A stretch of 64,000 nucleotides of DNA from Saccharopolyspora elongata. Its GTDB lineage: Bacteria; Actinomycetota; Actinomycetes; Mycobacteriales; Pseudonocardiaceae. Below are positions 45,732-62,504 of the stretch, piece after piece; positions within the stretch are counted from its first letter, which is position 1, and each line of letters starts with the position of its first letter. The stretch spans positions 1 through 64,000 of the forward strand of contig NZ_SMKW01000012.1 of assembly GCF_004348985.1 (NCBI RefSeq). The letters are read 5' to 3'. A model generated the notes under the pieces. That model did no database searches and was not told where the DNA came from. It saw only the letters and a list, made by a program, of their open reading frames with translations. The position numbers and the translations under genes are program-made.

Positions 45732-46023
45732 GAGCGCCTCCGGCTGGGAGGATCGCTTGTCCCCCGCAGGCCGCTGTTCGGCCCAGCACCAGTGGTTCTA
45801 GCCCCGCCGCGCACGCCATGTCCAGCAGCACCAGGCCGTTCCATCCGTTCGGCCCAGCGCTCCGTCCCATGTGGACGATCACGTCAGGCGGGGCGTCGCC
45901 GCGGGTTCCGGAGTGACGCATACTGTATGCTAAAGCCATCGGGCAAAACACCCGAGCCGACCGCAAGCGCACCGATCGACCAGGACCGCCGGGCGGACCT
46001 GGCCCAGCCCCGGAGTTGACCGC
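45732..46023. other. Divergent promoter region, TerC-like / GntR
   Basis: This 292-nt stretch separates the minus-strand TerC-like gene from the plus-strand GntR gene. It has no convincing gene. It holds the 13-bp palindrome at 45918-45930 and a short CGGGCAAAACACCCG hairpin just after it (45940-45954). Confidence 0.6.
45918..45930. promoter_or_regulatory. GntR operator, site A
   Basis: GCATACTGTATGC is a perfect 13-bp palindrome about 95 nt before the GntR gene. Near-identical sites occur at 54927, 55124 and 62492, all in front of oxalate/formate genes. The position suggests that the GntR protein represses itself and those operons. Confidence 0.7.
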
Positions 46024-46710
46024 ATGTCGCTGACCTCGAAACTGCCGCAGGGCATCGCCGCGCGCCAGGTCGCGCGCCCGGTCCCGCTCCGGGAAACCGT
46101 CTACGAAGCCATCCTGGAACTCATCATCACCGGCGAGCTCAAGCCCGGCCAGCACCTGGTCGAGAAGGAACTCGCCGAGCTGCTCGGCGTTTCCCGCCAG
46201 CCGGTGCGCGAAGCGCTGCAATGGCTGAAGAAGGACGAATGGGTCGACCTGCGGCCGGGCTACGGCGCGTTCGTGCACAGCCCCACCCCGGACGAGGCCG
46301 ACCAGCTGCTGAGCGTCCGCACGCTGCTGGAGGCCGAGTCCGCCCGGCTGGCGGCGCTGAACTCGACCAAGGAGGGCGTAGCCGGCCTCAAGCAGGTCTA
46401 CAAGCGCGGCGTCCAGGCCCTCAAGGCCGACGACATCGACGAGATGGTCGCGGCCAACGCCGAACTGCACCACCTGATCACCGAGATGTCCGGCAACAAG
46501 ATCCTCAAGGAGATCGCGGCCCAGGTGGCACGCCGGGTCCGCTGGTACCACACCCCGGTGGCCAAGTCCCGGGGCAAGAAGTCCTGGGACGAGCACTCGG
46601 CCCTGATCGACGCGATCAGCAAGGGCGAGGCCGACCGGGCGGCCCGGCTGATGCGCGAGCACACCGAGCACACCCGCGAGACCTACCTGGCGCAGAACTC
46701 CGAGGGCTGA
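46024..46710 (+). CDS. GntR/FadR-family regulator, candidate controller of the oxalate/formate genes
   Basis: A 228-residue regulator. The winged helix (about 20-88) carries LKPGQHLVEKELAELLGVSRQPVREALQWL (signature location). The FCD domain (about 100-215) has metal-type histidines in ELHHLITEMSGN, DEHSALIDAI and REHTEHT, typical of carboxylate-sensing FadR members. Its own upstream region holds palindrome site A. The same site recurs before the formate dehydrogenase, oxalyl-CoA and fdhD genes, so it is the best local candidate to control them; oxalate, oxalyl-CoA or formate could be the ligand. Confidence 0.88.
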   Translation: MSLTSKLPQGIAARQVARPVPLRETVYEAILELIITGELKPGQHLVEKELAELLGVSRQPVREALQWLKKDEWVDLRPGYGAFVHSPTPDEADQLLSVRTLLEAESARLAALNSTKEGVAGLKQVYKRGVQALKADDIDEMVAANAELHHLITEMSGNKILKEIAAQVARRVRWYHTPVAKSRGKKSWDEHSALIDAISKGEADRAARLMREHTEHTRETYLAQNSEG

Positions 46711-46716
46711 GTCGGC

Positions 46717-47613
46717 GTGACGGTCTCGACGAACTTGACCGCGCGGCAGGTGGCTTCGCTGGTCGCGGATGCGTTGGCGCTGCGCGGCCCGCTCGAGGTA
46801 CGCCCGATCGACGAGGGCGGGGAGCACCTGGCGTGGTCGGTGGGCGAACGGCACGTGGCGCGGTTCGCCGCGGACGCCGGGTCGACGCGTCGGCAACGCC
46901 GCGAGCTCGCGGTCCGCGACCTGCTCCGCCACCGCGTCGGCGTGGCGCTGCCCCGCTCGGCGGCCGCCGGCGAATGGGCACCCGGCCTGGCGTTCACAGT
47001 GGACGAACGCCTGCCCGGAACTTCCGCGGAGGCGCGGCCGGTGTCCGCAGCGGGCGAACGGGACCTGGCGGTGATGCTGTCCGGGCTACGGGCGGTGCCC
47101 ATCGCCACCGCCGCCGGACTGGGTGTCCCGACTGCTGCCGAGCGCGATGTCCCCGAGCTGGTGCGCGAAGCGGCGGCCGCCGCCGGCCGGCTCGCGGCGC
47201 AGGACCGGCTGCGGGCGGAATGCGCCCCGGAGCGGCTGGCTGTGCCGGTCGGCCCGCCGCGGGCGCAGGTCCTGCTGCACGCCGACTTGAAGGGTGAGCA
47301 CCTGCTCGTCGACGAATCCGGCGCGATTTCCGGCGTGCTGGACTGGACGGACGCCGAAACAGGCGATCCGGCAACGGATGTCGCGGGGCTCGTCATCTCG
47401 GTCGGTGCACCCGCCGCCGCCCGCATCGCCGAGCGAGCGGGGTACGGCGAGGACCTCGTCGCCAGAGGACTCGTGATCGCCCGTTGCGACACTGTCATCC
47501 GGCTCGACGACCTGCTCAACGGCGACGACGACAGCCCCGAGGCCCTGCTTCGCGACCAGCTCGCCCGCGCCTGGCAGCCGACCCCGCTCGACGAGCGCTC
47601 CGGGTCGCGTTAG
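46717..47613 (+). CDS. Aminoglycoside phosphotransferase-like kinase
   Basis: A 298-residue APH/choline-kinase-fold protein. The catalytic loop is in LLHADLKGEHLLV (Asp as base) and the metal-binding motif in GVLDWTDAETGDPATDVAGL. The N-lobe is short but has an Arg/Lys-containing strand, HVARF. The family includes antibiotic kinases and small-metabolite kinases; nothing here favours antibiotic resistance. GTG 46717 lies 6 nt after the GntR stop, so it is probably cotranscribed. A hairpin ends it. Confidence 0.82.
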   Translation: MTVSTNLTARQVASLVADALALRGPLEVRPIDEGGEHLAWSVGERHVARFAADAGSTRRQRRELAVRDLLRHRVGVALPRSAAAGEWAPGLAFTVDERLPGTSAEARPVSAAGERDLAVMLSGLRAVPIATAAGLGVPTAAERDVPELVREAAAAAGRLAAQDRLRAECAPERLAVPVGPPRAQVLLHADLKGEHLLVDESGAISGVLDWTDAETGDPATDVAGLVISVGAPAAARIAERAGYGEDLVARGLVIARCDTVIRLDDLLNGDDDSPEALLRDQLARAWQPTPLDERSGSR

Positions 47614-47625
47614 CCACCCGGAACG
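47596..47625. terminator. Terminator hairpin between convergent genes
   Basis: CGCTCCGGGT (47596-47605) pairs with ACCCGGAACG (47616-47625) at 9 of 10 positions. The hairpin overlaps the stop of the phosphotransferase gene and lies 5 nt before the stop of the convergent methyltransferase gene. Confidence 0.65.
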
Positions 47626-47629
47626 CGCA

Positions 47630-48463
47630 TCAGGATCCCGGCCTGCGGCCGAAGTGCACCGTTTTGGCGGTCAGCAGGAACAGGTCCTGCCGCCGGTCGA
47701 TGCCCGCCGGATCGGCCGGGTCCAGCAACCTGTCCAACGTGACCACGTCCTCGGGGTCCAGGACCTCGGCGAAAGCCCCGCGCTGGCGCTCCAGCAACCG
47801 GCGCACGTACCGTCGCGGCCCGTCGGCCAAGGGCGCCGGGCGGTCGACGAGGAAGGTCTTGCTGCGCGCGTCGGTCAGGCCTGCCGCGCGCAGCATGCCG
47901 GGCCAGTCCTCCAGCACCCGCACCGATCCGGGCTGCTCGGCCCGCATCTGGGCGAACCGGTCCGCCGTGGCCGCGTCCAGCCGGGTCTGCAGGCCTGGAC
48001 GCCCGAAGCCGAGGTCGCGCGGTAGCCAGCGCTCCGGCAGCCCGCCCTCGACGATGGTCAGCACGCCGCCGGGCGCGAGCAGCCCGGCCAGCCGGTCCAG
48101 CGCGGCCTGCTGATCGCCGACGTGGTGCACGACCTGCCCCGACCACACCAGGTCAGCCGGTTCCAGGCCGTCCAGGCCCGCCGGGAACTCGGCCACCCGC
48201 GTGCGCACCTCGACACCGGACCGCTCGGCCCGCCGCTCGGCGCGCGCCAGCAGTTCCGGCGTCCCGTCCACGGCCGTGACCTCGGCTTTCGGAAACGCCG
48301 CCGCCAGCAGGCAGGCCACCACCCCCGGACCGCTGCCGATGTCCAGGATCCGTTGCGGCGCAAGGTGTTCCAGTTCCCCGATGGCTTCCCGCACGTACGG
48401 GTCGTGCGTTTCGCCCTCCCGCTCCAGCATGTCGGCCATCGCCGCCCAGTCGACGTCCTTCAC
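47630..48463 (-). CDS. SAM-dependent methyltransferase (class I)
   Basis: A 277-residue methyltransferase. The SAM-binding motif I is ILDIGSGPGVVACLLAA (about residues 32-48), then VTAVDGTPELLARA (motif II acidic residue) and the LVWSGQVVHHVGD motif post II. The C-terminal part is helical, as in ubiE-like and natural-product methyltransferases. The GTG start overlaps the stop of the flavoprotein gene (GTGA), so the two are translated together. Substrate unknown. Confidence 0.85.
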   Translation of the reverse strand: MKDVDWAAMADMLEREGETHDPYVREAIGELEHLAPQRILDIGSGPGVVACLLAAAFPKAEVTAVDGTPELLARAERRAERSGVEVRTRVAEFPAGLDGLEPADLVWSGQVVHHVGDQQAALDRLAGLLAPGGVLTIVEGGLPERWLPRDLGFGRPGLQTRLDAATADRFAQMRAEQPGSVRVLEDWPGMLRAAGLTDARSKTFLVDRPAPLADGPRRYVRRLLERQRGAFAEVLDPEDVVTLDRLLDPADPAGIDRRQDLFLLTAKTVHFGRRPGS

Positions 48464-49365: not shown

Positions 49366-49395
49366 GGCACCCACCATGCGCCCGGCCCGGCGAAC

Positions 49396-49424
49396 TTGAC
49401 AAACCTTGTTGCTGTTTCTGCAAT
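49396..49424 (+). promoter_or_regulatory. Promoter of the XRE-cupin regulator, possibly leaderless
   Basis: TTGACA (49396-49401) and TGCAAT (49419-49424) are separated by 17 nt. Transcription would start at or near the ATG at 49431, so the message may be leaderless, as is common in actinomycetes. The region also contains CAAACCTTGTTG-type dyad sequence that could bind the regulator itself. Confidence 0.5.
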
Positions 49425-49430
49425 AAGGAC

Positions 49431-49997: not shown

Positions 49998-50019
49998 CGG
50001 ATCGGGCAGGCGGACCCGG

Positions 50020-50961
50020 TCACGGCTCGCCCTTGCGCTCCCGGTTCTGCACGTGCTGCCAGCCGAACCGGCCCTTGATGCACAGGTTGCCGTGGCCGAC
50101 CGAGCTGTCGTGCGGCGAGGTGACCCGGACTATCTCGTTGTCCTGCGTGTGCAGCGTGAGGTTGCAGCCGACACCGCAGAACGTGCACACCGTCGTGGTC
50201 TGCTGCTGCCGCGACTCGTCCCAGGTCCCCTCGCCGCGCATGTCGAACTCCGTCTTGAAGCTCAACGCGCCGGTCGGGCAGACCTCGATGCAGTTCCCGC
50301 AGTAGACGCAGGCGGATTCCGGCAGCGGCCGGGCGAACTCGGTGGAGATCCGCGCGTCGAAGCCGCGCCCGGCGACCGAGATGGCGAAGGTGTTCTGCCA
50401 CTGCTGCCCGCAGGCGTCCACGCACTTGTAGCAGAGGATGCACTTGCCGTAGTCGCGGACGTAGAGGTCGTTGTCGACCTTCGCGTCCTGCCGCACGGTC
50501 GCGGCCGCGCTGCCGTCCGGCTCCTCGTGCTCTCCCGGCCGGCGTTCGTCGTGGTCGTCGGCGGGCGGCTCGGGCGGGCCGAACCGCTCCGGCCGCGCGC
50601 CGCACTCGGCCATCCACTCGCCGACCTGCGGCGTGGTCGACAGATCCGCCGAGGACGCCAGCAGTTCCAGCACCACCTTGCGGCTGCGCCGGGTGCGCTC
50701 GGAGTCGGTGCGCACCACCATGCCGGGCGCGACCTGCCGCGAGCACGACGGCACCAGCGTGCGCGAGCCCTCGACCTCCACCATGCAGACCCGGCAGGCG
50801 TTGCGGGGTTGCAGCGTGTCGCCCCAGCACAGCGTGGGGATCGAGATGCCCAGCGCCGCGCACGCGTCCAGGATCGTCGAGCCCTCCGGCACGCTGACGG
50901 TGCGACCGTCCACAGTGAACTCGACCAGGCGGCGCGGAAGCCCGATGTCGACGGCGGTCAT
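50020..50961 (-). CDS. Iron-sulfur N-terminal part of NAD-linked formate dehydrogenase, as a separate subunit
   Basis: A 313-residue protein that corresponds to the N-terminal part of FdhA/FdsA-type large subunits. It has a 2Fe-2S ferredoxin domain (Cys45, 56, 59, 73), two 4Fe-4S clusters (Cys174, 177, 180, 184 and 218, 221, 224, 228), and a molybdopterin-oxidoreductase 4Fe-4S domain (Cys259, 262, 266, 294). The catalytic molybdopterin domains are in the gene at 52812-54734. It should relay electrons to the NuoEF-like subunit. GGGGGAGG precedes ATG 50961. It is last in the three-gene operon. Confidence 0.88.
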   Translation of the reverse strand: MTAVDIGLPRRLVEFTVDGRTVSVPEGSTILDACAALGISIPTLCWGDTLQPRNACRVCMVEVEGSRTLVPSCSRQVAPGMVVRTDSERTRRSRKVVLELLASSADLSTTPQVGEWMAECGARPERFGPPEPPADDHDERRPGEHEEPDGSAAATVRQDAKVDNDLYVRDYGKCILCYKCVDACGQQWQNTFAISVAGRGFDARISTEFARPLPESACVYCGNCIEVCPTGALSFKTEFDMRGEGTWDESRQQQTTTVCTFCGVGCNLTLHTQDNEIVRVTSPHDSSVGHGNLCIKGRFGWQHVQNRERKGEP

Positions 50962-51003
50962 GCCGCGCCTCCCCCGGCATCCGCCCGGGCGGCGGTGAAA
51001 TCG

Positions 51004-52821
51004 TCACTCATGCGACCCTCCAGCTGCGAACGCGCCGAGTTGCTCCACTGCGGACTCCACCGCGTTCCAGGCCGTCTGCCCGAGCCCGCAGATGGACGAA
51101 TCCCGCATCACCTGGCCGACTTCGCGCAGCAGCGCGAGGTCGTCCGCGCCGTCGCCGCGGCCCCGCGCGAGCCGCTGCAACGCCTCCTCCTGCCGCACCG
51201 TCCCGACCCGGCACGGCACGCACTGCCCGCACGACTCGTCGCGGAAGAACGCGGCGATGCGCAGCAACAACGCGGGCAGGTCGGCGGTGTCGTCGAAGAC
51301 CAGCACCACCCCGGAGCCCAGCGTGGTGCCGGCCTCCCGCACGGCTTCCAGGCTCAGCGGCAGGTCCAGTCGGTCGGGCCCGACGAACCCGCCCGCCGCG
51401 CCGCCGAGCAGCACCGCGCGCAACCGCCGCCCGTCGCGCACTCCGCCGGCCAGCTCCAGCAGTTCCCGCAGGGTCGTGCCGAACGCGACCTCGTAGACGC
51501 CCGGCCGCCGCACGCTGCCGGAGAGGCAGAACAGCCGCGTCCCGGTCGACTGCTCGGTGCCGGTGCGCGCGTACTCCGCTCCGCCGCCGGTCAGGATCAG
51601 CGGCACGTTGATCAGCGTCTCGACGTTGTTGACCACGGTCGGCTTGCCGAACAGGCCGCGCTCCACCGGGAACGGCGGCTTGCTGCGCGGCTCGCCGCGG
51701 TAGCCCTCGATCGAGTTGAAGATCGCGGTCTCCTCGCCGCAGATGTAAGCGCCCGCGCCGCGGCGCAGCTCGATGTCGAAGTCGAAGCCGTCCCGGCCGA
51801 GGATGCCGCGACCGAGCAGGCCGCGCTCGCGGGCCTGGGCGATCGCGTTCCGCAGGCGGCGGGTGGCCCGCGGGTACTCGCCGCGGATGTAGAGGTAGCC
51901 GCGGGCGCAGCCGGTGGCGAAGCCGGCGATGGTCATCGCCTCGATCACGGCGAACGGATCGCCCTCCATGACCACCCGGTCCTTGAAGGTGCCCGGCTCG
52001 CTCTCGTCGGCGTTGCACACCAGGTAGTGCGGTCGCGACGGCTGGCCCGCGGTGGCCTCCCACTTGCGGCCGGTCGGGAACGCCGCGCCGCCCCGCCCGG
52101 TCAGCCGCGCCTCGGTGAGCTGCCGGATCACCTCGGCCGCGCCGATGTCCAGGGCTCTCCGGAGCGCTTCGTAGCCGCCGTGCGCCCGGTAGTCGTCCAG
52201 GCTTTCCGGGTCGACCACGCCGATCCGGCGCAGCAGGCGCAACTGCGGATCGCCGGCCTGCGGCACCGAGTCCCGCACCGGCGGCTCGCGATCACCGTCG
52301 ACCGGACCGGTTCCCGCGAGATCCACAGTGGACTCGCTGGTGGCCGGGGCGACCAGTTGCGCGCGGGCCGGGTCACCGGCTTGGAACGCCAGCGCGGCCG
52401 GAGCGCGCTCGCACACGCCGAGGCACGGGCTGCGCAGCCACATCACGCCGTCGTGATCCTTGCCCGCCGCGCCCAGCGAAGCCTCCAGCGCCGCGCACAC
52501 CTGCGCCGATCCGCCCGCCTTGCAAGCCAGGTCGTCGCAGACGTGCACCACCCGCGGCGGGCGCGGGCCCAGCGCGAACAGCGCGTAGAAGCTGGCCACG
52601 CCGTAGGCATCGGCAGGCGGGATGGCCAGCCGTTCGCAGATGTGGTTCAACGCGCCCGTGCTGATCCAGCCCACCCGGTCGTTGACCGCGTGCAGCGCGG
52701 GCAGCAGCTGATCCCGGCCCGCCGGCGGGCCGTGCCCGTTGCCGCCGGGTGGGCCGAGCAGCGCGTCCACCGCCGCGCGCTCGGCATCCGTCGGGGCGGC
52801 GTTGAGCAGCTTCAGATCCAC
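51004..52821 (-). CDS. NuoE-NuoF fusion, NAD-reducing subunit of formate dehydrogenase
   Basis: A 605-residue fusion. The N-terminal 150 residues are NuoE-like, with 2Fe-2S ligands in VCDDLAC and SPCLGVC. The rest is NuoF-like: an FMN/NAD region (GRGGAAFPTGRKW, CNADESEPGTFKDR, GAGAYICGEETA), a ubiquitin-like SLBB part, and a 4Fe-4S site (CGQCVPCRVG plus a later Cys in SSICGLG). It takes electrons from formate to NAD+. GTG 52821 overlaps the catalytic subunit stop by 10 nt. It equals FdsB/FdsG-like functions in one chain. Confidence 0.92.
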   Translation of the reverse strand: MDLKLLNAAPTDAERAAVDALLGPPGGNGHGPPAGRDQLLPALHAVNDRVGWISTGALNHICERLAIPPADAYGVASFYALFALGPRPPRVVHVCDDLACKAGGSAQVCAALEASLGAAGKDHDGVMWLRSPCLGVCERAPAALAFQAGDPARAQLVAPATSESTVDLAGTGPVDGDREPPVRDSVPQAGDPQLRLLRRIGVVDPESLDDYRAHGGYEALRRALDIGAAEVIRQLTEARLTGRGGAAFPTGRKWEATAGQPSRPHYLVCNADESEPGTFKDRVVMEGDPFAVIEAMTIAGFATGCARGYLYIRGEYPRATRRLRNAIAQARERGLLGRGILGRDGFDFDIELRRGAGAYICGEETAIFNSIEGYRGEPRSKPPFPVERGLFGKPTVVNNVETLINVPLILTGGGAEYARTGTEQSTGTRLFCLSGSVRRPGVYEVAFGTTLRELLELAGGVRDGRRLRAVLLGGAAGGFVGPDRLDLPLSLEAVREAGTTLGSGVVLVFDDTADLPALLLRIAAFFRDESCGQCVPCRVGTVRQEEALQRLARGRGDGADDLALLREVGQVMRDSSICGLGQTAWNAVESAVEQLGAFAAGGSHE

Positions 52822-54734
52822 AGCGCCTCCTGGTGGGCTCCGGCCGGCAGCTTGTCGACGCGGATCGCCGCGGCCTTGTACTCGGCCGTGCCCGCCACCG
52901 GATCGGTGGCCTCAATGGTGATCAGGTTGACGTCCACCTCGTCCGGGAAGTGGAACGTCATGAACGCCAGGCCCGGCCGGAGCCCGGCGTCCAGCCGGAC
53001 CGGCGCGACGATAGAGCCGCGGCGCGAGGAGATCTGCACCCGCTCCCCCTCTGCCACGCCCAACGCCTCGGCGTCGGCCGGGCACAGGTCCAGGGTTTCG
53101 CCGCGCCGCATCGGCGAGTTGAAGCCCTGCGACTGCACGCCGGTGTTGTAGGAGTCCAGCCGGCGGCCGGTGGTCAGCCGCAGCGGGTACTCCTCGCTGA
53201 GCTCGTCGACCGGCGGGCTGTGCCGCACCGGCGCGAACACCGCAGGCTCGCCGCGCACGATCGGGTCGTCCGCCCACAGCCTGCTGTGCAGGTAGGTCGG
53301 TTCCAGCGAATCCTCGGAGAAGCAGGGCCACTGGATGCCGCCGAGCTCCGCGAGCCGCTCGTAGGACATGCCGTGGTGCATCGGCGAGAGCGCCCGCACC
53401 TCCTCCCACACCTGCTCTGCGGTGTCGTAGTGCCAGTCGTGGCCGAGGCGCCGCGCGATCTCGCAGATGATGTCGATGTCGTTGCGCGCCCCGCCGGGCG
53501 GATCCAGCGCCTTGCGCACCCGCTGCACCCGTCGCTCGCTGTTGGTGAAGGTGCCGTCCGTCTCGCACCAGGCCGCCGAGGCGGGCAGCACGACGTGCGC
53601 CTGCTGCGCGGTCTTGGTGAGGAAGATGTCCTGCACCACCAGGTGTTCCAGGTTCCGCATCCGCTTGAGGGTGCGACCGGAGTCGGCCTCGGACTGCACC
53701 GGGTTCTCGCCGATCGCGTACACCGCGGTGAGGTCGCCGCGATCCATCGCCTCGAACATCTGCGTCAGGTGCCAGCCGTAGCGCGGCGGGATGTTCGAAC
53801 CCCAGGCCGCGTCGAACCGCTCGCGGACCTCGGGCGAGAGGATGTCCTGGAACCCGGGCAGCCGGTTGGGGATCGCGCCCATGTCGCCGCCGCCCTGCAC
53901 GTTGTTCTGCCCGCGCAACGGGTTCAGGCCGCTGCCGTAGCGGCCGACGTGCCCGGTCAGCAGGGACAGGTTGATCAGCGACAGCACGTTGTCGGTGCCG
54001 TTGTGGTGCTCGGTGATGCCCAGCGTCCAGCACAGCTGGGCGCGGTCGGCGCGTGCGTAGGCGTGGGCGAGTTCCTCGATGAGCTCGGCGGGCACTCCCG
54101 TCTCCAGCGCCGCGACCTCCGGCGTCCACTGCCGCACTTCGGCGGCGTAGGCGTCGAAACCGCCGGTGGCGCGGTCGATGAAGGAGCGGTTGACCAGCCC
54201 GGACGCGATGATCTCCCGGCCGATCGCGTGCGCCAGCGCGATGTCGGTGCCGACGTGCAGCTGCAGCCAGCGGTGCGCCCACTTGGCGGTGCTGGTGCGC
54301 CGCGGGTCCACCACGTACAGCTTGGCGCCGCGGTTGACGGCCTTGAGCACGTGGTGGAAGAAGATCGGGTGCGCCTCGCGGGCGTTGGAGCCCCACAGCA
54401 CGATCAGGTCGGCGTCCTCGATCTCCTGGTAGGACGACGTGCCGCCGCCGCTGCCGAAGACCTGGGCCAGGCCCGCCACGCTCGGCGCGTGGCAGGTCCG
54501 GTTGCAGGAGTCGACGTTGTTGGTGCCGATCACGGCGCGCGCGAACTTCTGCGCCACGTAGTTCATCTCGTTGGTGGCGCGGGCGCAGGAGAAGACGCCG
54601 AAGGCGTCCGGCCCGCGCTCCTCGACGGTGCGCGCGATTCCCTCAGCGGCCCGGTCGAGCGCTTCCTCCCACGACGCGGGCCGCAGGTCGCCGCCGTCGC
54701 GCACCAGGGGCTCGATCAGCCTCGTGTACCCCAT
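52812..54734 (-). CDS. Formate dehydrogenase molybdopterin catalytic subunit, lacking the N-terminal Fe-S domain
   Basis: A 640-residue molybdopterin oxidoreductase. Cys81-His82 in NNVDSCNRTCHAPSVAGL sits where formate dehydrogenases have Cys or selenocysteine bound to Mo/W. Cofactor segments include WGSNAREAHP, LNPLRGQNNVQGGGDMG and, in the C-terminal domain, LRLTTGRRLDSYNTG. The usual N-terminal 4Fe-4S domain is absent and is encoded by the last gene of the operon. ATG 54734 has GAGGAGG and AGGA upstream. Operator site B lies in its promoter. Confidence 0.9.
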   Translation of the reverse strand: MGYTRLIEPLVRDGGDLRPASWEEALDRAAEGIARTVEERGPDAFGVFSCARATNEMNYVAQKFARAVIGTNNVDSCNRTCHAPSVAGLAQVFGSGGGTSSYQEIEDADLIVLWGSNAREAHPIFFHHVLKAVNRGAKLYVVDPRRTSTAKWAHRWLQLHVGTDIALAHAIGREIIASGLVNRSFIDRATGGFDAYAAEVRQWTPEVAALETGVPAELIEELAHAYARADRAQLCWTLGITEHHNGTDNVLSLINLSLLTGHVGRYGSGLNPLRGQNNVQGGGDMGAIPNRLPGFQDILSPEVRERFDAAWGSNIPPRYGWHLTQMFEAMDRGDLTAVYAIGENPVQSEADSGRTLKRMRNLEHLVVQDIFLTKTAQQAHVVLPASAAWCETDGTFTNSERRVQRVRKALDPPGGARNDIDIICEIARRLGHDWHYDTAEQVWEEVRALSPMHHGMSYERLAELGGIQWPCFSEDSLEPTYLHSRLWADDPIVRGEPAVFAPVRHSPPVDELSEEYPLRLTTGRRLDSYNTGVQSQGFNSPMRRGETLDLCPADAEALGVAEGERVQISSRRGSIVAPVRLDAGLRPGLAFMTFHFPDEVDVNLITIEATDPVAGTAEYKAAAIRVDKLPAGAHQEALWI

Positions 54735-54926
54735 TCCTGCCGCCTCCTCGATGCGGAAGATCGAGCGGGTTCTCTTCTGCAACAACGCATTCCGGCGTTT
54801 GGCACAAGCGGTCGGCGTTTCCGTTTTTCGAGCGGGAAAGCCGCTACCGAACGGCTGCCCACTGCGGGAATCCCGTGCTCGCCGGCCCGTTCGGCGGCGA
54901 CGCCGGGGCAACCACCGCCAGTCAGT

Positions 54927-54939
54927 GTATACAGTATGT
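54927..54939. promoter_or_regulatory. GntR operator, site B (formate dehydrogenase promoter)
   Basis: GTATACAGTATGT matches the reverse complement of site A at 11 of 13 positions. It overlaps the predicted -10 element of the minus-strand fdh operon, where a repressor would block RNA polymerase. Confidence 0.65.
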
Positions 54940-54975
54940 GACACTCCGGCAAGATTGCGCCACCCGCACCTCATC

Positions 54976-54996
54976 TGGCAATACGTCAGATTGCCA
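54976..54996. promoter_or_regulatory. Second dyad in the fdh/oxalyl-CoA control region
   Basis: TGGCAAT (54976-54982) and ATTGCCA (54990-54996) form a perfect 7-bp dyad with a 7-nt spacer. It differs from the GntR sites, which suggests another regulator acts here; none is identified. Confidence 0.45.
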
Positions 54997-55123
54997 CATG
55001 GCGATCCCCTGACCAGCGCGAACTCCGCCGAGAAATTCCACTGTGGACAAACACGGGGCCGCGCGGAAAGCCGAATCCGGCTATGGACACCCACCTGGTT
55101 CTGCGGTAAGCCTGAAGAGCACC

Positions 55124-55143
55124 TCATACGGTATGCAGTATGG
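55124..55143. promoter_or_regulatory. GntR operator, site C (before oxalyl-CoA operon)
   Basis: TCATACGGTATGC (55124-55136) matches site A at 11 of 13 positions. A second weaker copy, GTATGCAGTATGG (55131-55143), overlaps it. They lie 37-56 nt before the start of the ThDP-enzyme gene. Confidence 0.65.
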
Positions 55144-55179
55144 AGCCGACCGTAGGCACCGGCTTGGAGGAGAGCGCAG

Positions 55180-56880
55180 ATGGCCCAGACGACACCCGAC
55201 CAAGCAGGCGAAACCGAGCTGATCTCCGGCGGTCACCTCGTCGCCAAGGCGCTCAAGGCCGAAGGCGTGGACACCATCTTCACGCTCTGCGGCGGGCACA
55301 TCATCGACATCTACGACGGCTGCGTCGACGAGGGCATCGACGTGATCGACGTCCGGCACGAACAGGTCGCCGCGCACGCCGCCGACGGCTACGCGCGGAT
55401 CACCGGCCGCCCGGGCTGCGCCGTGGTCACCGCCGGCCCCGGCACCACCGACGCGGTCACCGGCGTGGCCAACGCGTTCCGGGCCGAGAGCCCGATGCTG
55501 CTCATCGGCGGGCAGGGCGCGCTGTCGCAGCACAAGATGGGCTCGCTGCAGGACCTGCCGCACGTCGACATGATGAACCCGATCACCAAGTTCGCCGCCA
55601 CCGTGCCGCACACCGAACGCGTCGCCGACATGGTGTCGATGGCGTTCCGGGAGTGCTTCCACGGCGCGCCCGGCCCGTCGTTCCTGGAAATCCCGCGCGA
55701 CATCCTCGACGGGTCGGTGCCGCTGGAGAAGGCGCGGATCCCCGGCGCGGGCGGATACCGCGCCACCACCCGCTCCGCAGGCGATCCGGACGCCGTCGAG
55801 AAGCTGGCCGACCTGCTGGTCAAGACGGAGAAGCCGTGCATCCTGCTGGGCAGCCAGACCTGGACCTGCCGGGCGACGGACTCGGCGGTGAAGCTCGTCC
55901 GCGAGCTGAACCTGCCCGCGTTCTGCAACGGCGCCGGGCGCGGCACGCTGCCGCCCGGGGACCCGCTGCACTTCCAGCTCGCCCGCCGCTACGCCTTCGA
56001 CAACGCCGACCTGATCATCATCCTGGGCACCCCGTTCGACTTCCGGATGGGCTACGGCCGCCGGCTCTCGCCCGAGGCCACCGTGGTGCAGATCGACCTG
56101 GACTACCGCACCGTCGGCCGCAACCGCGACATCGACCTGGGCATCGTCGGCGACGCCGACGCGGTGCTCACCGCGCTCGCCCAAGCCACCTCCGGGAGGC
56201 TGGACAACGGCGCGAGCGGCCGGAAGGGATGGGTGCAGGAACTGCGCGAGGTCGAGACCGCGGCCTACGAGAAGCGGCTGCCGCGCCAGCTCTCCACGGC
56301 CTCCCCCATCGACCCGTACCGGCTGGTGCACGAGATCAACGAGTTCCTCACCGAGGATTCCATCTACATCGGCGACGGCGGCGACATCGTCACCTTCTCC
56401 GGTCAGGTCATCCAGCCCAAGGCGCCCGGGCACTGGATGGACCCCGGCCCGCTGGGCACCCTCGGCGTCGGCGTGCCGTTCGCGATGGCGGCCAAGCACG
56501 CCCGCCCCGACCAGGAAGTGGTGTGCCTGTTCGGCGACGGCGCGTTCAGCCTCACCGGCTGGGACTTCGAGACGATGGTGCGCTTCGGCCTGCCGTTCGT
56601 GGGCATCGTCGGCAACAACTCGTCGATGAACCAGATCCGCTACGGCCAGATCGCCAAGTACGGCGAGGACCGCGGCCGGGTCGGCAACACCCTCGGCGAC
56701 GTCGAGTACAGCAAGTTCGCCCAGATGCTCGGCGGCTACGGCGAAGAGGTCCGCGACCCCGGCGAGATCGGCCCGGCCCTGCGCCGCGCGAGGGAGTCGG
56801 GACTGCCGTCGCTGATCAACGTCTGGGTCGATCCGGATGTATACGCGCCCGGAACCATGAACCAGACCATGTACAAGTGA
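55180..56880 (+). CDS. ThDP-dependent oxalyl-CoA decarboxylase-like / 2-hydroxyacyl-CoA lyase-like enzyme
   Basis: A 566-residue ThDP enzyme with the usual three domains. [16 protein letters not shown] holds the cofactor-activating Glu, and [29 protein letters not shown] is the ThDP/Mg2+ motif (about residues 451-480). The sequence is closer in feel to acetolactate-synthase-like and actinobacterial 2-hydroxyacyl-CoA lyase proteins than to classical Oxc of E. coli; the C-terminus ends [10 protein letters not shown]. Its place directly before a clear formyl-CoA:oxalate transferase makes oxalyl-CoA to formyl-CoA plus CO2 the most likely reaction. Cleavage of a 2-hydroxyacyl-CoA to formyl-CoA is the alternative. 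Confidence 0.78.
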
Positions 56881-56891
56881 GGGGCCTTGAC

Positions 56892-58118
56892 ATGACTGCA
56901 CTCGAAGGTGTCCGGGTGCTGGACATGACGCATGTCCAATCCGGACCGTCCGCGACGCAAATCCTGGCCTGGCTCGGCGCCGACGTGGTGAAGCTGGAGG
57001 CACCGACCGGCGACATCACCCGCCGCCAGCTGCGCGACGTCGACGACGCCGACAGCCTGTACTTCACCATGCTCAACTGCAACAAGCGCAGCATCACGCT
57101 GAACATGAAGTCCGAGCGCGGCAAGGAGATCTTCGCGGACCTGGTCGCCGATTCCGATGTGCTGGTGGAGAACTTCGGGCCCGGCACCGTGGACCGGATG
57201 GGCTTCACCTGGGAGCGGCTGCGCGAGATCAACCCTCGGCTGGTCTACGCCTCCATCAAGGGCTTCGGCGACGGCCCGTACACGCACTACAAGGCCTACG
57301 AGGTCGTCGCCCAGGCGATGGGCGGGTCGATGAGCACCACCGGCTTCGAGGACGGGCCGCCGCTGGCCACCGGCGCGCAGATCGGCGACTCCGGCACCGG
57401 CATCCACACCGTCGCCGGCATCCTCGCCGCGCTGCTGCAGCGGGCGCAAACCGGCCGGGGACAACGTGTTTCGGTGGCGATGCAGCACGCCGTGCTCAAC
57501 CTGTGCCGAGTCAAGCTGCGCGACCAGCAGCGGCTCGCGCACGGCCCGCTGCGGGAGTACCCGAACGCCGCCTTCGGCGACGAGGTGCCGCGCTCGGGCA
57601 ACGCCTCCGGCGGCGGTCAGCCCGGCTGGGCGGTGCGCTGCAAGCCCGGCGGCCCGAACGACTACATCTACGTCATCGTGCAGCCGCAGGGCTGGGCGCC
57701 GGTCGCGCGGCTGCTCGGGCGACCCGAGCTGGTCGAGGACCCGGACTGGGCCACGCCGGAGGCACGGCTGTCCAAACTGGACAAGATGTTCAGCATGATC
57801 GAGGAGTGGACGCTCGGCCTGGACAAGTGGTCCGTGCTGGCGGCCCTGAACGAGCACAACATCCCGTGCGGGCCGATCCTGTCCACCCAGGAGATCATCG
57901 AGGACGCGTCGCTGGCCGCCAACGACATGATCGTCACGGTCGACCACCCGGAGCGCGGCGCGTTCAAGACCGTCGGCTGCCCGATCAAGCTGTCCGACTC
58001 CCCGGTGCGGGTCGACCGCTCCCCGCTGCTCGGCGAGCACACCGCCGAGATCTTCCGGGACCGGCTGGGCATCGGCGAAACCGAACTGGCCGAGCTGAAG
58101 TCGAACGGGGTGATCTGA
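56892..58118 (+). CDS. frc: Formyl-CoA:oxalate CoA-transferase
   Basis: A 408-residue family III CoA-transferase very like E. coli Frc (YfdW) along its whole length. Shared segments are [36 protein letters not shown] and [14 protein letters not shown]. The catalytic Asp166 lies in [10 protein letters not shown], and the mobile glycine loop is GGGQPGW (240-246). It moves CoA from formyl-CoA to oxalate, giving formate and oxalyl-CoA. It starts 11 nt after the ThDP enzyme gene and the CoA ligase follows 2 nt later, so the three form one operon. Confidence 0.93.
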
Positions 58119-58120
58119 GC

Positions 58121-60250
58121 ATGGCTTACGACGGTGCCCGCGTGCGGGAGGTGCTCGACGCGGTCCGGGCGGAAGGCCGGGCTGCGCTCACCGCGCCGGA
58201 GGCGAAGGTGCTCTGCGACGCCTACGGCATCCCGACCGCCGGGGAGGGCCTCGCGACCAGCGCCGACGAGGCGGTGTCGCTGGCGCGGGAGTTCGGCGGC
58301 CCGGTGGCGTTGAAGATCGTCTCGCCGGACATCCTGCACAAGACCGACGCGGGTTGCGTGCTCGTGGACGTCAGCGGCGACGAGGCGATCCGCACCGGCT
58401 ACGCGCAGATCCTCGCCAATGCGCACGCCTTCACCGAGAACCCGGCGATCGCCGGGGTGCAGGTGCAGCAGATGGTCGGCGGCCACGAGGTGATCGTCGG
58501 CGCCACCACCGATCCGACGTTCGGCAAGGTCGTCGCCTTCGGCCTCGGCGGGGTGCTCGTCGAGGTCCTCAAGGACGTCACGTTCCGGCTCGCTCCCCTG
58601 TCCGCGGAGCAGGCGCGCTCGATGCTCGACGACATCGCCGCCGCCGACGTGCTGCGCGGCGCGCGCGGCAGCGAGCCGGTGGACGCCGACGCCCTGGCCG
58701 ACGTGCTGCGCCGGGTCTCGGACCTGGTGTACGACTTCCCGGAGATCGCCGAGCTCGACCTCAACCCGGTGTTCGCCACCGCCGCCGGGGCCACCGCCGC
58801 CGACGTGCGGATCGTCCTGGCGACCGAGGAGAGCGCCCCGCCGGTCCGGCATTCGCCGGAGGAGATCGTGCATGCGATGCAACGGCTGATGAATCCCCGC
58901 AGCGTGGCCGTGATCGGCGCCTCCAACGAGGACGGCAAGATCGGCAACTCGGTGATGAAGAACCTGATCAACGGCGGCTACGCGGGCGAGATCCACCCGG
59001 TCAACCCGAAGGCCGACGAGATCCTGGGCCGCAAGGCCCACCGCAGCATCACCGACGTGCCCGGCGAGGTCGACGTCGCGGTGTTCACCGTGCCCGCCAA
59101 GTTCGTGGCCGCGGCGCTGGAGGAATGCGGCCGGAAGCAGGTCGCCGCCGCCGTGCTGATCCCGTCGGGGTTCGCCGAGACCGGCAACCACGAGCTGCAG
59201 GCGGAGGTCGTGGCGGTCGCGCGCAAGCACGGGATCCGGTTGCTGGGGCCGAACATCTACGGCTACTACTACACGCCGCAGAACCTCTGCGCGACGTTCT
59301 GCACGCCCTACGACGTGCGCGGCGGCGTGGCCCTTACGTCGCAGAGCGGCGGCATCGGCATGGCCATCCTGGGCTTCAGCCGCACCACCAAGATGGGCGT
59401 GTCGGCGATCGTCGGGCTCGGCAACAAGTCCGATGTGGACGAGGACGACCTGCTGACGTTCTTCGAGCAGGACGACAACACGCACTGCGTGGCGATGCAC
59501 CTGGAGGACCTCAAGGACGGCCGGGCCTTCGTCGAGGCCGCCCAGCGGGTCACCAAGAGGAAGCCGGTCGTGGTCCTCAAGGCCGGGCGCACGGATCTCG
59601 GTGCCAGGGCCGCCAGCTCGCACACCGGCGCGCTGGCGGGCAACGACAAGGTCTACGACGACATCCTGCGGCAGTCCGGCGTGGTCCGGGCGCCCGGGCT
59701 CAACGAGATGCTGGAGTACGCGCGCGGCATCCCGGTGCTGCCCACGCCGAAGGGCGAGAACGTCGTCATCATCACCGGCGCGGGCGGCTCCGGCGTGCTG
59801 CTGTCGGACGCCTGCGTGGCGGCCGGGCTGCGGCTGATGGACATCCCCCCGGACCTCGACGAGGAGTTCCGGCGCTACATCCCGCCGTTCGGGGCGGCGG
59901 GCAACCCGATCGACATCACCGGCGGCGAGCCGCCCAGCACCTACGAGGCCACCATCCGGCTGGGGCTGCGGGACCCGCGCATCCACGCGCTGGTCCTCGG
60001 CTACTGGCACACCATCGTCACCCCGCCGATGGTGTTCGCGGAACTCGCCGCTCGGGTCGCCGAGGAGGCCCGCGCCGACGGCGTCGACAAGCCGATCGTG
60101 GTGTCGCTGGCCGGTGACACGGAAGTCGAGAAGGCCGCCGAATACCTCTTCGACCACGGCATCGTCGCCTACCCCTACACGACCGAGAAGCCCGTTGCGG
60201 TGCTGGGCGCCAAGTACCAGTGGGCCCGCGCCGCCGGCCTCCTCGGCTGA
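58121..60250 (+). CDS. ADP-forming acyl-CoA synthetase (acetate-CoA ligase family), beta-alpha order
   Basis: A 709-residue fused enzyme. An ATP-grasp part (about 1-220; VALKIVSPDILHKTDAGCV, QQMVGGHEVIVGATTDP) is followed by a CoA-binding part (about 255-350; NPRSVAVIGASNEDGKIGNSV) and a succinyl-CoA-synthetase-like part (about 370-700). SSHTGALAGNDK near residue 500 may hold the phosphorylated His. The reaction is acid + CoA + ATP to acyl-CoA + ADP + Pi, and is reversible. In this operon it could make the first oxalyl-CoA or recover ATP from formyl-CoA; both are inference. Confidence 0.88.
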   Translation: MAYDGARVREVLDAVRAEGRAALTAPEAKVLCDAYGIPTAGEGLATSADEAVSLAREFGGPVALKIVSPDILHKTDAGCVLVDVSGDEAIRTGYAQILANAHAFTENPAIAGVQVQQMVGGHEVIVGATTDPTFGKVVAFGLGGVLVEVLKDVTFRLAPLSAEQARSMLDDIAAADVLRGARGSEPVDADALADVLRRVSDLVYDFPEIAELDLNPVFATAAGATAADVRIVLATEESAPPVRHSPEEIVHAMQRLMNPRSVAVIGASNEDGKIGNSVMKNLINGGYAGEIHPVNPKADEILGRKAHRSITDVPGEVDVAVFTVPAKFVAAALEECGRKQVAAAVLIPSGFAETGNHELQAEVVAVARKHGIRLLGPNIYGYYYTPQNLCATFCTPYDVRGGVALTSQSGGIGMAILGFSRTTKMGVSAIVGLGNKSDVDEDDLLTFFEQDDNTHCVAMHLEDLKDGRAFVEAAQRVTKRKPVVVLKAGRTDLGARAASSHTGALAGNDKVYDDILRQSGVVRAPGLNEMLEYARGIPVLPTPKGENVVIITGAGGSGVLLSDACVAAGLRLMDIPPDLDEEFRRYIPPFGAAGNPIDITGGEPPSTYEATIRLGLRDPRIHALVLGYWHTIVTPPMVFAELAARVAEEARADGVDKPIVVSLAGDTEVEKAAEYLFDHGIVAYPYTTEKPVAVLGAKYQWARAAGLLG

Positions 60251-60264
60251 GTCCGGTGCAGGTC

Positions 60265-60328
60265 GGCGATTTCGCGCGAAATCGCCATCCGGCACGCGTG
60301 GCGAGCGGCGATTTCGCGCGAAATCGCC
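60265..60328. repeat. Tandem pair of identical 22-bp perfect palindromes
   Basis: The arm GGCGATTTCGC followed by GCGAAATCGCC makes a perfect 22-bp palindrome at 60265-60286 and again at 60307-60328, 42 bp apart. Both lie between the CoA ligase stop and the transporter ribosome-binding site. They could be paired hairpins that end or attenuate transcription, or a protein-binding or repeat element. Confidence 0.7.
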
Positions 60329-60387
60329 ACTCCCCCGCGGGCATCGCACCGGCTTGAAGTAGTCCAACCAGGGCAAGGAGGTCCGAT

Positions 60388-61878
60388 GTGGACGCTGAGA
60401 GAGCGCCCGGGAGAGATCCAGAACCTGTAATAGGACGAGACGAGGTCTGGCGGGCCGGCGGGCTGGAGCCGATGCCGATCCGCAAGCTGCCCGAGTCGCC
60501 GCCGTCGGTCCACCTGCTCGGCCCCACGGTGTTCCTGGTCGCGCTCGGGGTCGGCATGGGCGAGTCGTACATGTGGCCCAGGCTGGTGCTGGTCTTCGGC
60601 CCCGAGATCCGCTGGCTGTTCCTCATCGGGGTCACGCTGCAGGCCGTGGTGATGCTGGAGATGGCCCGCTACGCGATGGCCACCGGCGAGAGCATCTTCT
60701 CCGGCGCCGCGCGGGTGGCCAAGCCGGTGATGTGGTTCTTCTTCGTCACCGCGATCGCCGTCTACATCTGGCCGGGTCACCTGTCGGCGGGCGCGGCGGC
60801 GCTGGAGGAGATCACCGGCGTGCCGTGGGTCGTGTCGGCGTGCGTCGGCCTGCTGCTGGTCGGCGTGGTGTTCACGCTGGCCAAGGTGATCTACAACCTG
60901 CTGGAGAACGTGCTGTCGGTGCTGATCGGGCTGCTGGTGGTCGGCACCGCGGTGGTGGCCGCGATGGTCGGCGACCTCTCGGACCTGACCGCCACCATCA
61001 CCGGGATGTTCCACTTCGGGTACTTCCCGGCGGAGGCGATGTCGCCGTCGTGGTTCCCGGTCGTGGTGGGCTCGATCGCCTTCGCCGGGCCGTCCGGCAT
61101 GCAGCAGATGTGGTACACGCTGCACCTGCGCGACAAGGGCGCCGGGATGGGCGCGCACATCCCCCGCATCCGCGGCCTGCGGCACGCGGGCGAGGAGGAG
61201 GCGATGCCCTCCCGCGGGTTCATGTTCGACACCACCGATCCCGACGAGATGCGCAAGTGGAAGGGCTGGCGGCGCTGGGTCACCTTCGACGCGCTGCTGC
61301 TGTTCTGGGGCATCACCATGCTGGTGACGATCTCGTTCACCGTGCTGGCGCAGTCGGCGGCGCGGGAGAACCCCGGCGTGCGCGGGCTGATCGAGTCCGG
61401 GGAGCGGGAGGCCGCGCTGGGCGCGATGGCCGACGCGTTCTCGGCGGCGGGCGGCCCGGTGCTGGGCTCGGTGTTCCTCGGGTTCATCGCGCTGATCGGG
61501 CTGAACGCGACGCTGGGCCTGTTCGACTCGTTCTCCCGCGGCCAGGCCGACATGACCTACCACTTCGTGCCGGGTGCGCGGCGCTTCCGGATGTCGCACC
61601 TGTACGCGGCGTTCCTGTGGGGCGTCATCGCCTTCGGCATCCTGATCCTGCTGTTCGGGCCGGCGGACGGGCCCGGCGCGATCCTGGACGTCCTCGCGTT
61701 CCTGTCCACCTTCGCGATGGGCGCCTACTGCGTGGTGCTGCTGCTGGTGAACAACCGGATGCTGCCGCGCCCGATCCGGCCGCGGTGGTGGAGCAACGTG
61801 ATCATCGGCTTCGGCGCGGTGTTCTACCTCGGAATGCTGTTCTACAGCCTCGTCGAGTACGGAGTGGTCGTGAGCTGA
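60388..61878 (+). CDS. Nramp-related transporter without metal-binding motifs
   Basis: A 496-residue protein with about 11 membrane segments and the layout of the Nramp branch of the APC/LeuT fold. The TM1 DPGN motif of metal-transporting Nramps is replaced by GVGMGESYMWPRL, and TM6 reads FAGPSGMQQMWYT instead of carrying the usual metal-ligand Met motif. A charged loop of about 55 residues separates TM6 and TM7. AAGGAGG at 60375-60381 supports GTG 60388. In the oxalate operon it may carry oxalate, formate or another carboxylate; this is inference. Confidence 0.75.
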   Translation: MDAERAPGRDPEPVIGRDEVWRAGGLEPMPIRKLPESPPSVHLLGPTVFLVALGVGMGESYMWPRLVLVFGPEIRWLFLIGVTLQAVVMLEMARYAMATGESIFSGAARVAKPVMWFFFVTAIAVYIWPGHLSAGAAALEEITGVPWVVSACVGLLLVGVVFTLAKVIYNLLENVLSVLIGLLVVGTAVVAAMVGDLSDLTATITGMFHFGYFPAEAMSPSWFPVVVGSIAFAGPSGMQQMWYTLHLRDKGAGMGAHIPRIRGLRHAGEEEAMPSRGFMFDTTDPDEMRKWKGWRRWVTFDALLLFWGITMLVTISFTVLAQSAARENPGVRGLIESGEREAALGAMADAFSAAGGPVLGSVFLGFIALIGLNATLGLFDSFSRGQADMTYHFVPGARRFRMSHLYAAFLWGVIAFGILILLFGPADGPGAILDVLAFLSTFAMGAYCVVLLLVNNRMLPRPIRPRWWSNVIIGFGAVFYLGMLFYSLVEYGVVVS

Positions 61879-61879
61879 C

Positions 61880-62290
61880 ATGCCAATCAGCAGCCGGACG
61901 TCCGCGCCGGGCCTGGTGATCGGGGCGGTAGCGGGGTTGTTCGCCGGGACGCTCGTGCTGGCCGGCGGGGCGCCGCCGGGGTGGGCCGCGGTCACCGGCC
62001 TGATGCTGGCGTTGCCGCTGGCCGCGCTCGGGGCAGGCTGCAGCGCCCTGCGGGAGCACGGCGTGTTGCGCGGCGGCGCTTTCGCCCCGGTGGCGCTGTA
62101 CTGGGTGATCGCCTTCCCGGTCGCCCGGCTCGTCCAGGACGTGGGCACCCGCCTGGTCCTGGACGAGCGGTTCGACTGGCCGCCGCAGCCGCTGGCCTTC
62201 CTGGCGTACCAGGCGTTGATCAGCGTCGGGTTCGCGATCGGGTTCGTGTGGGTGCACGAGCGGCTGCTGCCTCGCGGTGCCCCGAGATGA
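61880..62290 (+). CDS. Small membrane protein (136 aa), function unknown
   Basis: A 136-residue protein with about four hydrophobic segments (near 10-30, 37-55, 67-85 and 103-125). It starts right after the transporter stop (TGAC-ATG), so it is likely cotranslated and could be an accessory subunit. No family is recognised. A conserved-looking loop DVGTRLVLDERFDWPPQPL lies before the last segment. Confidence 0.65.
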   Translation: MPISSRTSAPGLVIGAVAGLFAGTLVLAGGAPPGWAAVTGLMLALPLAALGAGCSALREHGVLRGGAFAPVALYWVIAFPVARLVQDVGTRLVLDERFDWPPQPLAFLAYQALISVGFAIGFVWVHERLLPRGAPR

Positions 62291-62303
62291 CGGCGCTCGC
62301 GGC

Positions 62304-62471
62304 TCAGCGCTCCCGGGCGGCCGTTTCGGACCGAGCGCCGCCGGATCGCTGACGATCCGTGCGGCTGGATTCGATCGCGGCGGACGTGGCCAGCCCCAGC
62401 ATGCGCCCGTCCGCCGCGTAACCGCGCGGCAGGTCGGCGAAATGCCGCAGCACGGAACGAAGTATCCGCAT
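62304..62471 (-). CDS. Small soluble protein (55 aa) under operator site D
   Basis: This 55-residue reading frame has an unusually strong ribosome-binding site, AAAGGAGGTG (62479-62488), before ATG 62471. The N-terminal half is compact and plausible (RILRSVLRHFADLPRGY, then ADGRMLGLATSAAIE); the C-terminal half is Arg/Ser-rich and perhaps disordered. It is divergent from fdhD with GntR site D only 21 nt before its start. I do not recognise a family. Its place suggests a role in formate dehydrogenase or oxalate metabolism. Confidence 0.6.
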   Translation of the reverse strand: MRILRSVLRHFADLPRGYAADGRMLGLATSAAIESSRTDRQRSGGARSETAARER

Positions 62472-62491
62472 TCAGATGCACCTCCTTTCGT

Positions 62492-62504
62492 GCATACAGT
62501 ATCC
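62492..62504. promoter_or_regulatory. GntR operator, site D (small ORF / fdhD)
   Basis: GCATACAGTATCC matches the reverse complement of site A at 12 of 13 positions. It lies between the divergent 55-aa ORF and fdhD, so one bound regulator could control both. Confidence 0.65.

Follow-up and report, generated by a model that had tools for sequence, protein, structure and literature searches.

A conserved palindromic operator at oxalate and formate genes of Saccharopolyspora elongata and its predicted GntR/FCD regulator

The locus and its four palindromes

We analyzed a window of 64,000 nucleotides of contig NZ_SMKW01000012.1 from the Saccharopolyspora elongata genome assembly (10.3 Mb, 277 contigs), in which four copies of one palindrome, named operators O1 to O4, lie upstream of genes for a GntR/FCD regulator (gntR), a formate dehydrogenase, a putative oxalyl-coenzyme A (CoA) pathway, and the accessory protein FdhD (Table 1). 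All four contain the exact core ATACNGTAT. An earlier reading of the same stretch (the original prediction) had placed the perfect palindrome before the GntR gene, copies at 54927, 55124, and 62492, and a weaker copy overlapping the site at 55124; we reproduced each position and identity. It had also reported no further copy in the window, which holds for exact cores, and one extra match with three mismatches lies at 63697 in the MFS gene.

O1 sits in a divergent gap and also faces the TerC gene. The operon behind O3 runs oxc-frc-acs, then the gene for the Nramp-related transporter, then that for the 136-amino-acid (aa) protein. O4 had been placed between a 55-aa open reading frame (ORF) and fdhD; the position is right, and we amend the target to fdhD plus the OFA-like transporter gene. 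In two genomes from the same genus (L286 and L304), an O4-type site stands immediately upstream of an OFA-like gene, without fdhD. The 55-aa ORF (62304-62471, minus strand) faces O4 and has 61 to 70% matches in eight family loci; a profile search returned no family match for it.

Table 1. Operators and genes of the locus, in window coordinates
Feature	Position	Strand	Remarks
TerC-family membrane protein	44916..45731	-	Pfam TerC 39.4 bits, cut-off 27.8; divergent from gntR across O1
Operator O1, GCATACTGTATGC	45918-45930		13/13; 93 bp upstream of gntR
gntR, GntR/FCD regulator, 228 aa	46024..46710	+	Pfam GntR and FCD above cut-off
Iron-sulfur (Fe-S) N-terminal part of formate dehydrogenase, own gene	50020..50961	-	Pfam Fer2_4, Fer4, Molybdop_Fe4S4
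Formate dehydrogenase flavin/NAD subunit (24K-51K fusion)	51004..52821	-	Pfam
Formate dehydrogenase catalytic part (molybdopterin domains), without N-terminal Fe-S part	52812..54734	-	Pfam
Operator O2, core ATACAGTAT	54927-54939		11/13; 192 bp upstream of formate dehydrogenase operon
Operator O3, core ATACGGTAT	55124-55136		11/13; 43 bp upstream of oxc
Second site overlapping O3, GTATGCAGTATGG on plus strand	55131-55143	-	10/13; 7-bp shift
oxc, divergent oxalyl-CoA decarboxylase/2-hydroxyacyl-CoA lyase-like thiamine diphosphate (ThDP) enzyme	55180..56880	+	Pfam TPP domains
frc, formyl-CoA:oxalate CoA-transferase	56892..58118	+	TIGR03253 658 bits, cut-off 504; PDB matches YfdW, Frc
acs, ADP-forming acyl-CoA synthetase-like	58121..60250	+	Pfam
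Nramp-related membrane transporter	60472..61878	+	NF037982 479 bits, cut-off 50
136-aa protein	61880..62290	+	No family match (Pfam, NCBIfam)
Operator O4, core ATACAGTAT	62492-62504		12/13; 60 bp upstream of fdhD
fdhD, formate dehydrogenase accessory sulfurtransferase	62565..63398	+	NF001943 401 bits, cut-off 269
OFA-like MFS transporter	63552..64000, on to ~64883 of contig	+	67% to OFA-like cluster

Rarity of the core and conservation of its targets

The exact core occurs four times in the window, whereas 300 Markov simulations averaged 0.01 copies and never gave more than 1. Genome-wide there are seven copies, against four anywhere for the reversed control, and four of the seven fall within this 17-kb span, a clustering with a chance probability of 2e-10. 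The copies outside the window lie 75 bp upstream of a TerC/Alx gene (C194), 38 bp upstream of a galactarate/altronate-dehydratase-like gene (C173:30996, L306), and about 100 bp upstream of a 467-aa ORF (C2). The second of these is perhaps the site of a different GntR protein.

Relatives of gntR and oxc were sought in 200 genomes drawn from the Pseudonocardiaceae (cuts of E<=1e-60 and E<=1e-150, respectively). As raw counts, GntR was found in 74, oxc in 72, and both in 69. The two genes share a contig in 65 of these 69 genomes, 0.45 to 15 kb apart and in several gene arrangements, and lie on separate contigs in 4. Among 296 genomes from the phylum, the S. elongata genome included, 9 hold a GntR relative (E<=1e-50); its distribution beyond the family is patchy. 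In the family set, GntR-positive genomes carry a mean of 6.1 exact cores (median 5.5, n=74) and GntR-negative genomes a mean of 1.7 (median 1, n=126), with 2.4 and 1.65 reversed controls per genome. One GntR-positive genome, G131, contains 36 exact cores versus 4 in the control.

We then compared two sets of loci, which overlap in species. The family set comprises loci L084 to L152 (n=69, every one with GntR; oxc on the same contig in 64 and 5 picked as GntR-positive without oxc), to which 20 kb of the window was added. The named set comprises the best 80 of 508 GntR relatives in the genome collection, with titles such as Nonomuraea, Nocardiopsis, Kribbella, Glycomyces, and Streptomyces, 42 of them outside the family by title. 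The family set with the window contains 173 cores, versus 0 to 6 for each of 11 half-site-permuted palindromes; the named loci contain 192, again versus 0 to 6 per permuted palindrome. Only 4 of the 365 cores lie wholly inside predicted ORFs.

Operon leads were scored for an exact core, or one with a single mismatch, within 500 bp. Exact cores precede 59 of 64 oxc leads in the family (64 with one mismatch allowed) and all 24 outside it. The corresponding counts are 51/51 and 11/12 (12) for panE, 25/38 (38) and 31/31 for sucC, 15/19 (17) and 7/11 (10) for fdhA, and 49/70 (60) and 18/42 (24) for gntR itself. OFA-like leads have 19/46 (36) and 31/36 (31), fdhD 5/9 (7) and 0/6 (4), terC 15/46 (15) and 2/21, moeA-like genes 1/2 and 11/16 (13), and aldh 10/10 and 20/24. 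Further leads with exact cores are c21 (12/12) and selB-like genes (7/8) in the family, and gcl (20/22), garR (21/22), and hyi (20/21) outside it. Other operon leads in both sets have exact cores in 4 of 310 cases and cores with one mismatch in 10 of 310. These counts are interdependent, as divergent neighbors share sites and leads can belong to longer operons. Leads for which too little sequence was available were left out: in the family, one each for gntR, oxc, c21, selB, fdhD, and acs and two each for OFA and frc; outside the family, seven each for oxc, frc, and acs, eleven for moeA, three for terC, and two each for trans and aldh.

The target names in relatives rest on one representative per cluster. 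Those for SucC, GarR, and the 2-dehydropantoate-reductase subfamily exceed their family cut-offs and that for Gcl exceeds one of two, while the OFA-, MoeA-, SelB-, and Hyi-like representatives score below theirs. Read with these names, the predicted regulon is larger in relatives, taking in panE, sucCD, gcl-hyi-garR, moeA-like, terC, and pntA-like genes.

A survey of sites away from the main cluster covered 40 stretches from 13 genomes, including two from the S. elongata genome. Sites lie upstream of TerC genes (L292, L294, and L305), of OFA-like genes (L281, L286, and L304), of pntA-like genes (L278 and L283, with a profile scan on L278 only), and of aldehyde-dehydrogenase-like genes (L271, L274, L297, L298, and L273). 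All of these last but L273 match one shared cluster at 26 to 28%, with a profile scan on L271 only. Formate dehydrogenase gamma-like genes plus fdhB follow the site in L280 and L282, and in L299 the site falls where the gamma-like ORF meets the fdhB ORF. In L302, a tungstate-binding-protein-like gene (191 bits; cut-off 400) lies about 430 bp behind the site. L273 and L276 also hold formate dehydrogenase, OFA-like, and other main-cluster genes. No target was recognized in the rest of the 40 stretches, the four S. spinosa ones included, and some of these sites are probably chance matches. TerC/Alx-family genes turn up repeatedly: one flanks gntR in the window, others in relatives are close to the 136-aa gene, and in three genomes they follow off-cluster sites. 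Separately, a SelB-like gene (71.5 bits; cut-off 242) stands behind a site next to formate dehydrogenase genes in some relatives (for example, L100:3429-4997), where the enzyme is possibly a selenocysteine formate dehydrogenase.

The predicted regulator and its operator

GntR has an N-terminal winged helix-turn-helix (PF00392, 70.5 bits; cut-off 27) and a C-terminal FCD domain (PF07729, 96.5 bits; cut-off 24.3). The original prediction called it FadR-type, which holds at the level of the FCD (FadR) subfamily. The predicted fold (predicted local distance difference test score, 89.8) continues past the winged helix with five helical runs, of which one, 41 residues long, may be two; six helices in the C-terminal domain define the VanR group. 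The PDB entries 7u5q, PmiR, Atu1419, AlkR, and McbR all rank above FadR, with TM-scores to the query of 0.56 to 0.62 for Atu1419 and 0.69 to 0.83 for the others. From the model, the regulator looks VanR-like rather than FadR-like within FCD. Its best NCBIfam match is PhnR (112 bits; cut-off 271.5) and the second best NanR (NF003011, 104.9 bits; cut-off 260), both short of their cut-offs; the PhnR identity was rejected. The closest named match is a GntR of S. shandongensis (95%), from a list that may omit records of the S. elongata genome or a near one.

Residues N145, H149, H191, and H213 are invariant in 54 aligned GntR sequences (of 70) and fit the metal-ligand pattern D/N-x3-H...H...H. They match, by pattern and not by computed alignment, the zinc ligands N137, H141, H192, and H214 of Atu1419, a VanR-type GntR/FCD repressor of Agrobacterium fabrum whose crystals held citrate without effect on DNA binding (PMC7797058). 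Because of this zinc-site pattern and the citrate in Atu1419, an oxalate-like small dicarboxylate is a reasonable guess for the GntR ligand, and no more than that.

After repeated contexts and sites too near locus ends were dropped, 313 of the 365 sites remained. Their consensus widens the core ATAC-N-GTAT to TGCATACNGTATGCA. An extra GTAT half-site lies 7 bp outside the right half in 105 of 626 oriented flanks. Apart from this, half-site frequency exceeds 4% at just two positions, -6 (110, overlapping the core) and -13 (40). The second copy is usual at oxc, with the consensus CATACGGTATGCAGTATG. The FadR subfamily is described as binding TKGT-N3-ACMA, with weaker additional half-sites 7 to 12 nt off and with NanR and BioR listed as exceptions (Suvorova et al., PMC4494728). 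The operator here departs from that form, since the order of GT and AC is reversed in ATAC-N-GTAT, and GntR is its predicted reader.

Atu1419, a fold neighbor with an N-H-H-H site, has the operator ATGTATACAT, in which GT precedes AC, whereas the core here is AC-N-GT; its palindromes overlap -10 boxes, and it differs further in its hydroxycinnamate genes, its tetrameric state, and chain TM-scores of only about 0.6 (PMC7797058). The sialic acid regulator NanR of Escherichia coli is likewise an FCD protein with GGTAT-type half-sites and places several dimers on a repeated operator, but it uses direct repeats, (GGTATA)3, and a 32-residue N-terminal extension (PMC8012715), unlike the core here, which is inverted and may carry a further half-site 7 bp away. 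AlkR of Pseudomonas, a VanR-group FCD protein with a TM-score of 0.80, has a palindrome covering -10 regions and differs in its operator ATTGTCAGACAAT, its alkane genes, and its acyl-CoA ligands (PMC12042122). A GntR repressor of glycolate oxidase, GlcR, has also been described (PMC11323563). Local GntR/FCD metabolic regulators are known as a kind, and the operator here is unusual.

The pathway, the regulatory model, and its alternatives

The site at the oxalyl-CoA operon is present as claimed, and the description of its decarboxylase needs amending. The oxc product is divergent, scoring 232 bits against TIGR03254 (cut-off 739), although none of the genome's 18 matches scores higher. It is 25% identical to E. 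coli Oxc, and a pairwise alignment with that protein gives L-Q in place of Y120 and E121, named as key oxalyl-CoA decarboxylase residues (PMC10192776, section 3.2). Among PDB entries, its best matches carry titles of both kinds, 2-hydroxyacyl-CoA lyase and oxalyl-CoA decarboxylase. These features favor a pathway in which some other 2-hydroxyacyl-CoA, not oxalate, is cleaved to formyl-CoA and formate is the true shared product. S. lacrimifluminis bears on this in both directions: its standard OXC gene (987 bits) is some 8 kb away from gntR, which speaks for oxalate, but has no exact core upstream within the locus stretch examined, for which we weighted the alternative up. The transferase gene frc, however, exceeds its formyl-CoA transferase cut-off, and panE, OFA-like, and gcl-garR genes stand under the same site in relatives. 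Further, OXC above cut-off is absent from seven of the eight named genomes tested (S. lacrimifluminis being the eighth), including three of Kribbella, in which oxalate use has been reported; one paper names Kribbella albertanoniae as a confirmed oxalotroph (PMC10192776). We therefore consider a non-oxalate substrate unlikely, and the divergent ThDP enzyme a probable oxalyl-CoA decarboxylase.

Several other products of the locus score below family cut-offs. The TerC protein scores 93 bits against NCBIfam Alx (cut-off 246), the catalytic part of the formate dehydrogenase 654 bits against the Fdh-alpha model (cut-off 666), and the OFA-like transporter 107 and 118 bits against TIGR04259 and TIGR00890 (cut-offs 335 and 375), for which its cluster representative also falls short (120 and 166 bits). 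No NCBIfam equivalog scored above cut-off for the acs product. The formate dehydrogenase alpha subunit is split into two genes at opposite ends of its operon (50020-54734), with the flavin/NAD subunit between them. DPGN and MPH are motifs of metal-binding Nramp proteins. In an alignment of 95 loci, the Nramp-related protein has GMGESYMW and GMQQMWYT instead; it is possibly a carrier of oxalate or another anion.

In Cupriavidus and Methylobacterium, oxc is of the standard type. Their oxalyl-CoA route (apbA2/panE2) resembles the arrangement here, with frc-oxc and a panE-like gene close by, and uses gcl-hyi-tsr for glyoxylate; the text of that report (PMC7486775) has no mention of a GntR protein. 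The panE gene marks a further difference, as no relative of it was found in the S. elongata genome with S. aridisoli panE as the query (E<=1e-20). In the relatives that have it, PanE would act on oxalyl-CoA, judging by its gene neighborhood and that report.

A shared-operator oxalate/formate regulon is real and conserved, and the GntR protein encoded at 46024-46710 is very probably its regulator, with binding predicted. The original prediction of a small regulon with an assigned regulator is upheld by the genome-wide rarity of the core, the 65 genomes in which gntR and oxc are linked, the conservation of sites in several actinobacterial families, and one natural loss. In that case, genome G010 (listed completeness, 100%), oxc and frc are present, but GntR is missing at E<=1e-30 and 19.5 kb of sequence contain no core even when one mismatch is allowed. 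From the observed sites and their rarity, conservation, and co-occurrence, we infer the following model, to which we assign a probability of about 0.82: O1 to O4 are operators of the local GntR/FCD protein, most likely a repressor of oxalate metabolism. A GntR dimer would bind the inverted repeat ATAC-N-GTAT, widened by its flanks to approach TGCATACNGTATGCA, within or adjacent to the promoters of gntR, the formate dehydrogenase operon, the oxc-frc-acs-transporter operon, and the fdhD-OFA operon. Binding of oxalate or a breakdown metabolite to the metal held by the FCD domain would release it, inducing uptake, activation, decarboxylation, and formate oxidation in concert. At oxc, where a second half-site lies 7 bp further out, a second dimer could bind.

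Several observations weigh against this model. Genome-wide, CATACNGTATG with up to two mismatches occurs 445 times versus 451 for the control, no excess, and the 10 window matches to the 13-mer with up to three mismatches, equaled in 4 of 100 shuffles, are only mildly unusual. Loose matches are thus near chance, and the argument depends on cores that are exact or nearly so; of the genome-wide scan proposed in the original prediction, it is the exact core that proves rare and clustered. Even when one mismatch is allowed, no site lies within 500 bp of 10 of the 70 family gntR leads or of 18 of the 42 from elsewhere. Looking for -35 and -10 elements at a constant spacing from the sites revealed no clear pattern; the only hints were TANNNT at +6 in 19 of 22 gntR sites and TTG at -18 to -16 in 23 of 280. 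The co-occurrence counts ignore kinship, and loci selected for GntR cannot show the GntR-less state, which is represented only by G010, G103, and G170. In G103, a fragmented genome, gntR was not found, and an exact site precedes an OFA-like gene and near-sites precede oxc; G170 has a partial gntR match (E 5e-51) plus sites and is no clean loss. Finally, five genomes (G074, G085, G087, G102, and G137) have 5 to 15 cores and no GntR at E<=1e-30, where another protein may read the core or gntR may have been lost lately.

These last genomes are one ground for supposing that the sites belong to another regulator, such as a GntR paralogue, and that this GntR is a mere neighbor; the many GntR candidates in the S. 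elongata genome (90 at first look) point the same way. We judge this quite improbable, as GntR and oxc co-occur and are linked, core number tracks GntR presence, G010 lacks both GntR and sites, and the core stands upstream of gntR itself in the lead counts given above. The same holds for four of five GntR-positive genomes without oxc (E<=1e-150), G110 having no core. That the motif is a chance or structural palindrome with no regulatory function is scarcely credible: the near-chance level of loose matches would suit it, but the rarity and clustering of the exact core, the permuted-palindrome counts, the intergenic placement, and the operon-lead counts all oppose it. The sign of regulation is less firmly set. 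An activator or dual-sign regulator would fit sites far from the start codon, such as O2 at 192 bp and some gntR sites at 200 bp or more, and HypR of S. coelicolor, mainly a repressor, shows a hint of activation at one promoter (PMC6608401). Median distances of 32 to 64 bp to the start codon for oxc, sucC, panE, OFA-like genes, and fdhA place most sites over or beside the promoter, a weak argument since TACNGT resembles a -10 box by construction, and we hold plain repression to be the better account and an activating role rather unlikely.

A broader reading can be offered only tentatively, and we lean against it: GntR may be the master switch for oxalate use in many actinomycetes, sensing oxalate directly at the FCD metal and binding a 7-bp phased array of GTAT half-sites whose order is the reverse of the usual FadR consensus. 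It would govern a whole program: import, CoA activation, a novel oxalyl-CoA decarboxylase class, a glycerate route, formate dehydrogenase and the molybdenum cofactor genes that serve it, transhydrogenase, and a TerC metal exporter.

In the open-access literature, surveyed by titles and the starts of abstracts, no paper on this oxalate regulator stood out, and none of the papers listed names a regulator of oxalate metabolism in actinomycetes. A text search with the letters of the operator core gave no oxalate-regulator title among the matches listed; one match was about LexA. Oxalate-eating microbes are thought to limit the build-up of oxalate in the environment (PMC10192776). With a nine-base core that has only seven copies in the genome, the operator offers a direct way to list the genes of oxalate metabolism, a list that would take in the Nramp-related transporter, the TerC protein, the 136-aa protein, and the unusual decarboxylase, and it makes GntR a candidate oxalate sensor.

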